Part shown: positions 41,449 to 45,998 of the stretch, one piece after another
Layout: each line of letters opens with the position of its first letter
Numbering within the stretch: position 1 is the first letter of the stretch
Assembly: GCA_013361955.1 (NCBI GenBank)
Contig: JABFXA010000047.1
Span: forward strand, 18,207-82,206
Length of the DNA stretch: 64,000 nt
From: Nocardioidaceae bacterium
GTDB lineage: Bacteria; Actinomycetota; Actinomycetes; Propionibacteriales; Nocardioidaceae
Direction of reading: 5' to 3'
Program-made: the position numbers and the translations under genes
Notes under the pieces: model-generated
What the model saw: only the letters and a program-made list of their open reading frames with translations
Database searches by the model: none
Told to the model about the DNA's origin: nothing

Positions 41449-41835
41449 TCAGCGGCTGCTCACGCCTTCGGGGACGTCGACCTGCCGGTCCAGGCGGTCG
41501 ACGAGCCCGAGCCGCAGGTGCTCGCTGTGGAACACCGCCTGGTCGAGGAGCTCGGCGACATGGTCGTCGTACAACCGGTAGACGATGCTGCGGCCCTGTC
41601 GCTCGCCCTCGACGAGACCGAGGTTGCGCAGCAGCCTGAGCTGGTGGGAGACCGCCGACTGCTCCATGCCGACCTCGTCCGACAGCTCGCCCACGGTCGC
41701 GGTGCCGCTGCGCAGCCGGCCGAGGATCAGCAGCCGGCTGGGGGTGGCCAGTGCCTGCATCGTCGCGGCCACCGTCTTCGCGGTGCGGGCGTCGAGCTCG
41801 GCGGCCGCCATGTGGCCCTCACCGGCATGTCCCAT
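41449..41835 (-). CDS. ArsR/SmtB family metalloregulator
   Basis: MQALATPSRLLILGRLRSGTATVGELSDEVGMEQSAVSHQLRLLRNLGLVEGERQGRSIVYRLYDDHVAELLDQAVFHSEHLRL; metal-ligand-like DDHVAELLDQAVFHSEH helix. Confidence 0.9.
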   Translation of the reverse strand: MGHAGEGHMAAAELDARTAKTVAATMQALATPSRLLILGRLRSGTATVGELSDEVGMEQSAVSHQLRLLRNLGLVEGERQGRSIVYRLYDDHVAELLDQAVFHSEHLRLGLVDRLDRQVDVPEGVSSR

Positions 41836-41862
41836 GCGGTCACCCTAGCGTGCGCGGATTGG

Positions 41863-41878
41863 ATGAACATGTGTTCAT
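41863..41878. promoter_or_regulatory. SmtB/ArsR-type operator
   Basis: ATGAACATGTGTTCAT, perfect palindrome containing TGAACA-N2-TGTTCA, between divergent arsR and CDF genes. Confidence 0.8.
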
Positions 41879-41896
41879 GCATCTACACTTCACCGG

Positions 41897-42922
41897 GTGA
41901 GGCAGACCGTCGAGCACCCGCACCACGACCACGGACATGTTCACGGGCACGGGCACGGGCACCGTGGTGGGCTGGTCGGCCTGCTGTCCTCGGTCTTCCG
42001 CCCGCACAGCCATGACGCGTCCGACTCGGTCGACGACGCGCTGTCGTCCAGCGCGCGCGGCATCCGGGCGCTGAAGGTGAGCCTGCTCGCGCTGCTGGCC
42101 ACCGGGCTGCTGCAGGCGGTGGTGACGGTGTCCACCGGGTCGGTGGCGCTGCTGGCCGACACCATCCACAACGTCACCGACGCGTTCACCGCCGTCCCGC
42201 TGGGCATCGCGTTCTGGCTGGGGCGCCGACCGCCGACCCGCCGGTTCACCTACGGGTACGGCCGGGCCGAGGACCTGGCCGGCGTGGTCGTGGTGCTGGT
42301 GATCGCCGGGTCCGCGGTGGTGGCCGGCTGGGAGGCGTTCCGGCGGCTGCTGCACCCCGCGCCGGTCGAGCACGTCGGCTGGGTGGCCGCCGCCGGCGTG
42401 ATCGGCTTCGTGGGCAACGAGCTGGTCGCGATCTACCGGATCCGGGTCGGCCGCGACATCGGGTCCGCGGCCCTGGTCGCCGACGGGTTGCACGCCCGCA
42501 CCGACGGCATCACCTCCCTGGCCGTCGTGCTCGGCGCGGTCGGTGTCGCGCTCGGCTGGCCGCTCGCCGACCCGATCGTCGGCCTGGCGATCACTGCCGC
42601 GATCGTCGCGGTCCTGTGGGGCGCCGCCCGCGACGTGTTCGGACGGCTCATGGACGCGGTCGACCCGGCGATGACCCTGGTCGGCCAGCGCGCCCTCGAG
42701 GAGACCGACGGGGTCCGCTCCGTCCCGCAGGTCCGGTTGCGCTGGTCCGGCCACCAGCTGCACGCCGACGCCACCGTCGACGTCGACCCCCACCTCTCCG
42801 TCGACCAGGCCCATGACGTCGTACACGCGGCCGAGCGCAACCTCACCCGGGCTCTGCCCAAGGTGAGCGCCGCGGTCATCCACGCGCACCCCGCCGCGCC
42901 TCCGCGGTCGGGAGCACGCTGA
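41897..42922 (+). CDS. cation diffusion facilitator (CDF) metal efflux transporter
   Basis: His-rich N-terminus HPHHDHGHVHGHGHGH; LLADTIHNVTDAFTAVPLGIAFWLGRRPPTRRFTYGYGRAEDLAG; LVADGLHARTDGITSLAVVLGA. Confidence 0.93.
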   Translation: MRQTVEHPHHDHGHVHGHGHGHRGGLVGLLSSVFRPHSHDASDSVDDALSSSARGIRALKVSLLALLATGLLQAVVTVSTGSVALLADTIHNVTDAFTAVPLGIAFWLGRRPPTRRFTYGYGRAEDLAGVVVVLVIAGSAVVAGWEAFRRLLHPAPVEHVGWVAAAGVIGFVGNELVAIYRIRVGRDIGSAALVADGLHARTDGITSLAVVLGAVGVALGWPLADPIVGLAITAAIVAVLWGAARDVFGRLMDAVDPAMTLVGQRALEETDGVRSVPQVRLRWSGHQLHADATVDVDPHLSVDQAHDVVHAAERNLTRALPKVSAAVIHAHPAAPPRSGAR

Positions 42923-42957: not shown

Positions 42958-42990
42958 GTTCACGTTGCGTTCAGGTCCCGTTCATACGGT
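42958..42990 (+). promoter_or_regulatory. PHO-box-like triple 11-bp direct repeat
   Basis: GTTCACGTTGC GTTCAGGTCCC GTTCATACGGT: GTTCA at 42958, 42969 and 42980, 36 bp upstream of the DUF4956 start codon. Confidence 0.65.
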
Positions 42991-43025
42991 CGCCGTCGTT
43001 TGTCGACCGAAGGGCACCTGACCGA

Positions 43026-43664
43026 ATGGACCTCTCCTCGGACACCGTGAGCATGCTGGGCCGTCTCGGCCTGGACGTGCTGGCGATGTTGTTGTTGATC
43101 GGCTGGCTGTACCGGCGACGCCTGGCGGCGCCCGAGATGGCCCTGGTCTTCACCGCCCTCAACGTGGGCCTGTTCGCGGCCGTCTCCACGATCGGGAACG
43201 GCGACTTCCCCACCGGCATCGGGTTCGGGCTGTTCGGCCTGCTCAGCCTGGTGCGGCTGCGCAGCGCGGCGTTCACGCTCAAGGACGTCGCGTACACCTT
43301 CGTGGCGCTCGTGCTTGCGCTGGTGAACGGCCTTCCCGAGCGGGACCTGCTCCTGGTGGTCGCCCTGAACGTCGTGCTGCTGGCCGCGCTGTGGGTGGTC
43401 GACGAGACCCGCACCAGCGCCCCGGTGAGCCGGGTGATGCGGGTGACCCTGGACGTCGCGGTGCGCGACCTGGCGCTGGCCACCGAGGAGGTGCGGCGCC
43501 GGCTGTCGGTGCAGCCGCTGAGCGTCGTGGTCGAGGACGTCGACCTGGTCCGCGAGACCACCCGGGTCGCGGTCCGCTACGCCGTCGACGACCGACAGCC
43601 CACGAGCCCGAGCGACGAGGAGCCGGACGGGCTGGCCGCGGAGGAGCTGTCCGATGCCCGATGA
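43026..43664 (+). CDS. DUF4956 family membrane protein
   Basis: LIGWLYRRRLAAPEMALVFTALNVGLFAAVSTIGNGDFPTGIGFGLFGLLSLVRLRSAAFTLKDVAYTFVALVLALVNGL. Confidence 0.87.
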   Translation: MDLSSDTVSMLGRLGLDVLAMLLLIGWLYRRRLAAPEMALVFTALNVGLFAAVSTIGNGDFPTGIGFGLFGLLSLVRLRSAAFTLKDVAYTFVALVLALVNGLPERDLLLVVALNVVLLAALWVVDETRTSAPVSRVMRVTLDVAVRDLALATEEVRRRLSVQPLSVVVEDVDLVRETTRVAVRYAVDDRQPTSPSDEEPDGLAAEELSDAR

Positions 43665-44424
43665 CCTGATGGACCTGTCGTCCCTGCAGCCCGTGTCGCT
43701 CGCCGAGGTGATGGCCGAGGCGGCGCAGCTGACCCGGGTCGACCGCAAGTACGTCGTGCGCACCGACACCGCCCAGCGGCTGGTCGACGCGCTGCCGGCG
43801 TCGTACCGGGTGCTCACGATCGGCGACCGGGTCGTGACGACGTACCACAGCACCTACTTCGACACCGAGGACCTGGCGACCGCGCGGGCGCACGTGCAGC
43901 GCCGCCGGCGCCGGTGGAAGGTCCGACGGCGCCTGTACGTCGAGGACGGCTTCGCGCGCATCGAGGTCAAGGCCAAGGACGGCCGCGGGCTCACCGTCAA
44001 GACGGTCGCGGCGACCGACGCCGACGGCTCCCTGGGCGAGGACGAGACCGCCTTCCTGCGGGAGACGTTCGCCACGCAGGGCCTGACCTTCGACATCGCC
44101 TCGCTGCGCCCGACCATGGGCGTCAGCTACCGCCGCGCGACCCTGGCGCGCACCGGCCCGGACCCGGCGCGGCTGACCGTCGACTGGGCGGTGAGCTGCC
44201 GCCTCGACGGCCGCTGCGTCCGCCTCGACGACGGGCACGTGCTCGTCGAGACGAAGGGCGAGCCGATCCCCGGCGACGCGGACCGGCTGCTGGTGCGGCT
44301 GGGCTGCCGCCCGTCGTCGTTCAGCAAGTACGTCTCCGCCGCCGCCCTGCTCCGCGACGACATCGCGGACAACGACGTCCGCCGGATGCGGGGCCGCCTG
44401 CTGCACCTGGAGGGCGCCGCGTGA
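43654..44424 (+). CDS. VTC-domain polyphosphate polymerase family protein
   Basis: LTRVDRKYVVRTDTAQRLVDALPASYRVLTIGDRVVTTYHSTYFDT...KVRRRLYVEDGFARIEVKAKDGRGLTVKT...HVLVETKGEP...SSFSKYVSA; Arg/Lys-rich tunnel-type motifs. Confidence 0.87.
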   Translation: MPDDLMDLSSLQPVSLAEVMAEAAQLTRVDRKYVVRTDTAQRLVDALPASYRVLTIGDRVVTTYHSTYFDTEDLATARAHVQRRRRRWKVRRRLYVEDGFARIEVKAKDGRGLTVKTVAATDADGSLGEDETAFLRETFATQGLTFDIASLRPTMGVSYRRATLARTGPDPARLTVDWAVSCRLDGRCVRLDDGHVLVETKGEPIPGDADRLLVRLGCRPSSFSKYVSAAALLRDDIADNDVRRMRGRLLHLEGAA

Positions 44425-45263
44425 CGCACACACCTCCCCGCCGGTACGTCGTGGTCCTCGTCCTCGCGCTGGTCGCCGTCCTCGTCGGCCTGGCCGGACC
44501 GTGGGCGTACGCGTCGTTCGTCGACACCTCCGCCAAGGACCGCATCGAGGCCGACCCGCCGCCGGCCCTGTTCCCCGACCGGACCGTCGCGCCGCTGCAG
44601 CAGGACGTGACCGCCCAGGAGCCGAGGGCCCACGCGCTGATGAGGACCTGGTGGCGCGAGCACGGGCGCGACGAGCACGACGCCGCCTTCGTCGGGTGGC
44701 TCGGGCGGACGCTGCCGGGGCCACCGTCGTCGACGCACCGGACCGCCGAGGTCGCCCAGGTGCAGCGACTCGCGGGCATCCGCACGGCCTCCGGCGTGCG
44801 CGCCTCCACCTGGCTCGAGGCCTACGGCAAGAAGGACCTGTGGAAGCTCTACGCCCACGACCAGGCCGAGATGGTCGGTTCCGACCGCGGTGACCACCGC
44901 AAGGAGGCGCTGAAGGACATGCTCACGATGGCGAAGGACGTGGCGGACAGCCTGGCGCTGCGCTACGAGCAGCCGGCGCCGTACGTCCTGCACCCGTCGC
45001 TGCGGCCGGAGAAGGCGGTGACCAAGGGCCAGACCTGCCCGTGCTCCTACCCCTCGCGGCATGCCGCGCGCGGAGCCGCGGCCACCACCTTCCTGTCCGG
45101 TCTCGACCCGCACCGGAGCCAGCAGTACCACTGGACCGAGGCGGAGATCGACTACTCGCGGGTCTACATGGCCGGGCACGTGCCCAGCGACATCACCGGC
45201 GGGGCGCTCCTCGGCGACCTGATCGGCGAGTACTTCCTGGTCACCCGGCACGACTCCGCGTAG
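44421..45263 (+). CDS. membrane-anchored PAP2-family acid phosphatase
   Basis: GTG overlaps the VTC stop codon; N-terminal TM; CPCSYPSRHAARGAAATTFLSGL and YSRVYMAGHVPSDITGGALLGDLIGEYFL (PSRH and SRxxxxxHxxxD motifs). Confidence 0.82.
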   Translation: MTHTPPRRYVVVLVLALVAVLVGLAGPWAYASFVDTSAKDRIEADPPPALFPDRTVAPLQQDVTAQEPRAHALMRTWWREHGRDEHDAAFVGWLGRTLPGPPSSTHRTAEVAQVQRLAGIRTASGVRASTWLEAYGKKDLWKLYAHDQAEMVGSDRGDHRKEALKDMLTMAKDVADSLALRYEQPAPYVLHPSLRPEKAVTKGQTCPCSYPSRHAARGAAATTFLSGLDPHRSQQYHWTEAEIDYSRVYMAGHVPSDITGGALLGDLIGEYFLVTRHDSA

Positions 45264-45305: not shown

Positions 45306-45998
45306 GTGCCAGGATCGGGCTGTCCAGCCGCCGAGGTGGTGCCCGTGGTCGAGCCGATGGTCCGGGGGGAGCCGCGGTGGCCGATGGCCGCCGCGGTCGT
45401 CGCGGCCTCGGCGCTCACCCTCGCGCGGCCGGCCGAGGTCCGGGTGGCCCCGGCCTGGGTGCTCCCGGCGGTGGAGGCGGCCCTGCTGGTCGTCCTGGTG
45501 GTGCGCGACCCCGGGCGGATCGACCGGCGGTCGCGGGTGCTTCGCGCGGCGTCCATCGGCGCGGTCGGGCTGCTGGTCCTGGACGCGCTCTTCGCAACCG
45601 GTCGTCTCGTCGTGGCGCTCGTCGAGGGCGGGAAGCTGACAGGCTCCGCCACGGCGCTGCTGACCGCGGGGGTGGTCGTGTGGGTCTCGAACATCATCGC
45701 GTTCGCGTTGCTCTACTGGGAGCTCGACAGCGGCGGCTCCGCGGCCCGCGCACACGGGCTCCCGGAGACCCCGGACATCGCGTTCCCGCAGCAGCTCAAC
45801 CCGGAGCTGGCCCCGACGGAGTGGCGGCCGCTCTTCCACGACTACCTCTACCTCGGCCTGACGTCCGCGACGGCGTTCAGCCCCACGGACGCGATGCCGC
45901 TGGCCGGCTGGGCCAAGCTGGCCATGTCCGTGGAGTCGCTCATCTCACTGACCGTGCTCGGGCTCGTCGTGGCCCGCGCGGTCAACGTGCTCACCTGA
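45306..45998 (+). CDS. multi-pass membrane protein, DUF1345-like
   Basis: At least 5 hydrophobic segments; HDYLYLGLTSATAFSPTDAMPLAGWAKLAMSVESLISLTVLGLVVARAVNVL. Start codon uncertain. Confidence 0.65.
   Translation: MPGSGCPAAEVVPVVEPMVRGEPRWPMAAAVVAASALTLARPAEVRVAPAWVLPAVEAALLVVLVVRDPGRIDRRSRVLRAASIGAVGLLVLDALFATGRLVVALVEGGKLTGSATALLTAGVVVWVSNIIAFALLYWELDSGGSAARAHGLPETPDIAFPQQLNPELAPTEWRPLFHDYLYLGLTSATAFSPTDAMPLAGWAKLAMSVESLISLTVLGLVVARAVNVLT

Follow-up and report, generated by a model that had tools for sequence, protein, structure and literature searches.

The DUF4956-VTC-PAP2 operon in the window (the whole 64-kb stretch of DNA analyzed here) is, in our assessment, probably the effector part of a self-standing cassette of five genes, which is completed by a kinase and an OmpR-family regulator. 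Bacterial VTC-DUF4956 pairs are mentioned just in passing in the few papers that we found, and a five-gene cassette with a nearly single-target operator offers an unusually clean handle on what they do. DUF4956-VTC pairs are already known as accessories of Pel (PMC7112168); in the open-licence literature, we found no description of a version with PAP2, of the operator that goes with it, or of a two-component system linked to it.

Three perfect GTTCA units start at positions 42958, 42969, and 42980 of the window, spaced by 11 bp as the first-pass annotation had it, and the 33-bp block that they form ends ~36 bp before the first ATG, that of DUF4956. The translational coupling claimed for the three genes downstream was likewise confirmed: DUF4956 and VTC overlap by 11 bp, and VTC and PAP2 by 4 bp. 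The Pfam assignments hold, with all three matches above the cut-offs. The features are as follows:

42958..42979, plus strand: putative operator, two 11-bp direct repeats (GTTCACGTTGC and GTTCAGGTCCC) spanning the -35 region, in a register shared with orthologous operons
42980..42990, plus strand: third GTTCA, running into a predicted -10 element, TACGGT (42985-42990), which corresponds to a fixed-phase TAnnnT in orthologues
43026..43664, plus strand: DUF4956 membrane protein, 212 aa (PF16316, 1.1e-41)
43654..44424, plus strand: candidate VTC-domain polyphosphate polymerase, 256 aa, without an SPX domain (PF09359, 3e-19)
44421..45263, plus strand: PAP2-family acid-phosphatase-like protein, 280 aa, with an N-terminal membrane anchor or signal (PF01569, 3.3e-9)

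The triple repeat without mismatches occurs at a single site in the 64-kb window, where 0.01 sites are expected even allowing up to two mismatches. It is also single in the whole 4.7-Mb genome, in which four other places have two mismatches. Given these counts and the conservation of the element in orthologous operons (described below), we rejected a chance origin of the repeats. The runner-up site in the genome sits between phoU and a SenX3-like kinase, a natural position for a PHO box, which made a PhoRP reading of the window operon plausible and worth testing. We also noted that an ArsR-like regulator (minus strand) and a CDF cation-efflux transporter (plus strand) lie directly upstream of the operon (41449-42922), in the place occupied by a two-component system in most relatives, and that just 3' of it (45306-45998) lies a membrane protein that matches DUF1345 weakly, at a score under the Pfam cut-off.

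The distribution of the operon was assessed by searching 342 genomes of the family (Nocardioidaceae) with the PAP2 protein and, in addition, by a scan of named genomes. The search returned the window and 17 strong orthologues. A DUF4956 gene lies upstream of PAP2 in 17 of these 17, VTC is detectable in all but one (L045), and the 4-bp VTC-PAP2 overlap is kept in most. The scan, which named Nocardioides, Marmoricola, and Aeromicrobium as near relatives, found the operon also in 17 Streptomyces species (DUF4956 was not detected in one of the 17 loci, L090) and in one Frankiales MAG. The dedicated PAP2 partner that the first-pass annotation had proposed is thus a conserved third gene across these loci. 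Of the 342 Nocardioidaceae genomes, 94 have VTC genes, hence PAP2-bearing operons are a minority version; the other Nocardioidaceae DUF4956-VTC pairs that we examined carry various other, often secreted, proteins instead (identified by eye). At one Nocardioides ungokensis locus (L052, 3318-5080, minus strand; the same locus as L091), frameshifts disrupt both VTC and PAP2.

Aligned upstream regions of the orthologous operons share TTCA-N7-TTCA, followed by TAnnnT at a fixed phase (Streptomyces, for instance, has CTTCATGGTCTGTTCATGTGACATCCCTACCGTC, and Nocardioides rubriscoriae has ATTCATCCAGGCTTCACGTTGCGTTCGTAGTGT). A fixed-rule search found this element in 32 of 35 PAP2-type operons, which include related sequences and are not 32 independent events, although their matches span two families and the Frankiales MAG. 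The same rule gave 0 hits among 26 DUF4956-VTC operons that lack PAP2, and 1 among 10,500 shuffled sequences. Of the three misses, L045 does carry the element, which there extends past the assumed start codon. The cis element is therefore real and specific to PAP2-type operons: the 11-bp register, whose conservation had been named as one of the points on which the original proposal could fall, is kept, and a third PAP2 gene recurs together with upstream repeats, while the 26 examined pairs lacking PAP2 have no element. Only part of the array survived the comparison. The first two 11-bp units are conserved as repeats, but the third is not; its slot just before the -10 element is mostly TTCC or TCCC in other species. 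An ancestral box of three units was rejected because, in most species, this third position simply belongs to the stretch before the -10 element.

A pair of 11-bp units covering the -35 region, with a -10 element after it, is the arrangement of established PhoB promoters, and by analogy the layout would fit use by an OmpR/PhoB-family activator. Across seven Streptomyces genomes (8-13 Mb), the near-perfect element was found at the operon, and two other sites each matched with two mismatches. One of these two, a second copy of the element in Streptomyces bungoensis (L202, ~1501-1532), stands before a glycosyltransferase-like gene. We further noted that the predicted -10 element at L042, L047, and L051 lies only ~7-10 bases before the DUF4956 ATG, which suggests a leaderless mRNA.

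An OmpR-family response regulator and a kinase adjoin the operon in 16 of 17 Streptomyces loci, transcribed divergently and 147-258 bp from DUF4956. The response regulator is also adjacent in 10 of the 17 other Nocardioidaceae loci, in two of which (L041 and L052) it lies upstream on the same strand. The remaining seven, and the window, are without an intact adjacent regulator, and one of the seven has a related regulator ~6 kb away. The five genes (kinase, regulator, DUF4956, VTC, and PAP2) recur while their flanks differ between genomes. In a quick likelihood tree, the operon-adjacent regulators formed two sister groups in one starred clade, distant from RegX3 proteins of the same family, and their recognition helix (SNAIDVHVSKVR) differs from that of RegX3 (TKTLDVHVKRLR). 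The regulator reached none of the NCBIfam equivalog cut-offs shown, that of PhoB among them (199.6 bits against a cut-off of 296.2), and the kinase scored best with the heavy-metal sensor subfamily, again below the cut-off. Judged by these sequence comparisons, the linked regulator is not PhoP/RegX3. We also considered whether the linked pair could be CutRS; the site published for that system, TAWATAAA, is unlike this element (PMC12802291). In one Nocardioides genome (L039 1-1413; G184:C2:360461-361126), the operon and a related response regulator are separated by an alkaline-phosphatase-like gene. In the window genome, the assembly of which is ~90% complete, we found no protein belonging to the linked-regulator clade.

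The first-pass annotation had placed the operon under PhoRP. In that case the operon would be a target of PhoRP (SenX3-RegX3), switched on by phosphate starvation, and its GTTCA repeats would be a PHO box. Several observations fit: the 11-bp GTTCA register is found also at phoU-senX3 in the window genome and in 15 relatives, the window units all start with G, like PHO units, and the linked two-component system is absent from the window assembly. PHO units of S. coelicolor are likewise 11-bp repeats, with the core GTTCACC (PMC4415409). The cassette element has in common with the PhoP/RegX3 PHO box of actinobacteria at least two 11-bp direct repeats, a TTCA core, and a position upstream of the -10 element. 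It differs in its consensus (C/ATTCATG versus GTTCACC), in its linked regulator, and in occurring about once per Streptomyces genome in a near-perfect search.

We compared the two types with a PHO-box matrix trained on phoU promoters only, from 16 of the same genomes, which carry GTTCAC-type pairs. In leave-one-out scoring, 15 of 16 phoU PHO boxes were positive, while 15 of 15 regulator-linked operon boxes (with Streptomyces collapsed to five variants) were negative. Operon boxes favor C or A at position 1, T at position 6, and G at position 7, where PHO boxes have G, C, and C. The proposed matrix check thus went against a PHO box for the operon boxes as a class, and left the window box intermediate, at -0.8. 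With a different OmpR-family pair as the conserved neighbor and operon boxes separable from those of phoU, control by PhoRP is not supported as first stated, and we consider it rather unlikely.

A related alternative is that the linked regulator owns the box in most species and that its loss (in the window, L047, and L051) lets the box drift toward GTTCA and come under PhoP. Of six boxes that have no regulator beside them, three score close to the boundary or exceed it (window -0.8, L047 +2.2, and L051 +3.0), and no regulator-linked Nocardioidaceae box is positive. Nevertheless, L042, L046, and L098 also lack an adjacent regulator yet are clearly non-PHO, L038 has the linked regulator yet scores -0.6, and the numbers are small and the species related; as a general account we find this doubtful. 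For the window species, the intermediate box score and the absence of the linked regulator from the assembly make capture by PhoP possible: the box may be drifting toward PhoP, or the regulator may be encoded in the missing tenth of the assembly. Because the kinase-regulator pair is not in that assembly, the promoter there would answer either to a regulator that the assembly misses or to some relative of it, PhoP being one candidate. Elsewhere, regulation of the operon by the linked kinase-regulator pair is likely.

The predicted structure of the VTC protein (pLDDT 94.8) supports its assignment. Its best PDB matches were the tunnel domain of yeast Vtc4 with polyphosphate or nucleotide (3g3r/3g3q; E 5e-11, TM ~0.6), and Vtc4 and Vtc2 ranked above other tunnel enzymes, including triphosphatases. 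Residues R91, R93, E104, K106, K116, R161, E199, and K225, charged positions of the kind expected to line the tunnel, are invariant in 30 homologues. Three of them, R91, R93, and E199, are likely the counterparts of Vtc4 R264, R266, and E426, mutation of which impairs yeast VTC (PMC9911596). Vtc4 was not among the hits when PDB sequences were searched with VTC profiles or with a canonical VTC, hence this mapping rests on motifs. A VTC domain as originally called is therefore upheld by the PF09359 match, the Vtc4-like fold, and the invariant set of basic and acidic residues, and synthesis of polyphosphate by this protein is plausible and, we think, somewhat favored.

The AlphaFold2 model of DUF4956 comprises five membrane helices, predicted with low confidence, and a confidently predicted ACT/ferredoxin-like C-terminal domain. 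A fold search with this model gave no significant match, and a relative also matches MgtC. The model and the MgtC match agree with the published description of SIR_1592, the Pel-cluster membrane protein being described as an MgtC-like domain plus an ACT domain (PMC12345266). As for the third protein, profile searches matched PAP2 to the class A acid phosphatase PhoN. Like the class A non-specific acid phosphatases (PhoN/PhoC) of the PAP2 superfamily, it has the second and third motifs, which are kept in nearly all orthologues as PSRH and SRx5Hx3D. It differs from them in having PSRH in place of PSGH, in that the lysine of the classical KX6RP motif is not evident, and in being membrane-anchored and encoded in an operon with a polymerase. 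Its N-terminal hydrophobic segment suggests that the catalytic domain lies outside the cell. In L054 (4131-5042, plus strand), the histidine of PSRH and the SR of the third motif are lost, and this PAP2 is probably inactive.

On the cassette account, the phosphorylated linked regulator would bind the two TTCA 11-bp repeats, which replace a -35 box, and would turn on essentially one promoter, that of DUF4956-VTC-PAP2. VTC would then polymerize polyphosphate from ATP at the inner face of the membrane, DUF4956 would anchor VTC and probably pass the chain outward, and the exported PAP2 would hydrolyze or trim the phosphorylated product outside. The yeast VTC complex (Vtc4 polymerase, Vtc1/Vtc3 membrane channel) has the same tunnel-domain fold, represented by the best matches 3g3r/3g3q, and there too a membrane partner comes with the polymerase, which makes coupled synthesis and translocation the obvious model (PMC9911596). 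By contrast, the cassette VTC is without SPX, its partner is DUF4956 (five helices plus an ACT-like domain) rather than a three-helix protein of the Vtc1 type, and the cassette has putative two-component transcriptional control and an added exported phosphatase. Export of polyphosphate via DUF4956 is speculative and, we think, less likely than not. Equally tentative is the fullest version of the account, in which the cassette would be a self-contained system for regulated polyphosphate synthesis and export, with a private two-component pair, one promoter, DUF4956 as the bacterial counterpart of a Vtc1-type channel threading the VTC product across the membrane, and PAP2 processing it outside.

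It is also conceivable, though less likely than not, that no polyphosphate is made and that the substrate of the VTC-like tunnel protein is some other phosphate-containing compound used in building the envelope, with PAP2 acting on a lipid pyrophosphate or a phosphorylated glycan. DUF4956 and polyphosphate-polymerase genes accompany Pel exopolysaccharide operons (PMC7112168, PMC12345266), and the Pel-linked DUF4956-VTC-CotH genes may likewise act on another substrate. Other Nocardioidaceae DUF4956-VTC pairs precede secreted proteins, four Streptomyces cassettes have UppP (BacA) genes nearby, and triphosphatases are among the tunnel-fold enzymes. Against this, the best structural matches were Vtc4 and Vtc2, not triphosphatases, and no polysaccharide genes recur around the cassettes. 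The Gram-positive Pel DUF4956-VTC-CotH genes (Streptococcus, Clostridium, and Bifidobacterium) resemble the cassette in the adjacency of DUF4956 and VTC, but the cassette has PAP2 as its third gene, its own two-component system, and a conserved operator. Neither Pel genes nor CotH recur in the cassette neighborhoods, and the window operon is flanked by the CDF transporter and the weak DUF1345 match.

If the cassette account holds, switching one regulator in Streptomyces should reveal the product of the polymerase, whether it is exported, and which signal calls for it. The cassette would thereby test for a bacterial VTC-style route to polyphosphate distinct from PPK, and would provide a matched operator-regulator pair as a tool. 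Lastly, we noted two gene families in the vicinity of Streptomyces cassettes. A closely related MFS efflux-type transporter (~86% identical) recurs near L076, L080, L082, L084, L090, L092, and L096, and a BacA/UppP undecaprenyl-diphosphatase-type family is found near L074, L082, L092, and L100 (match tested in L092).
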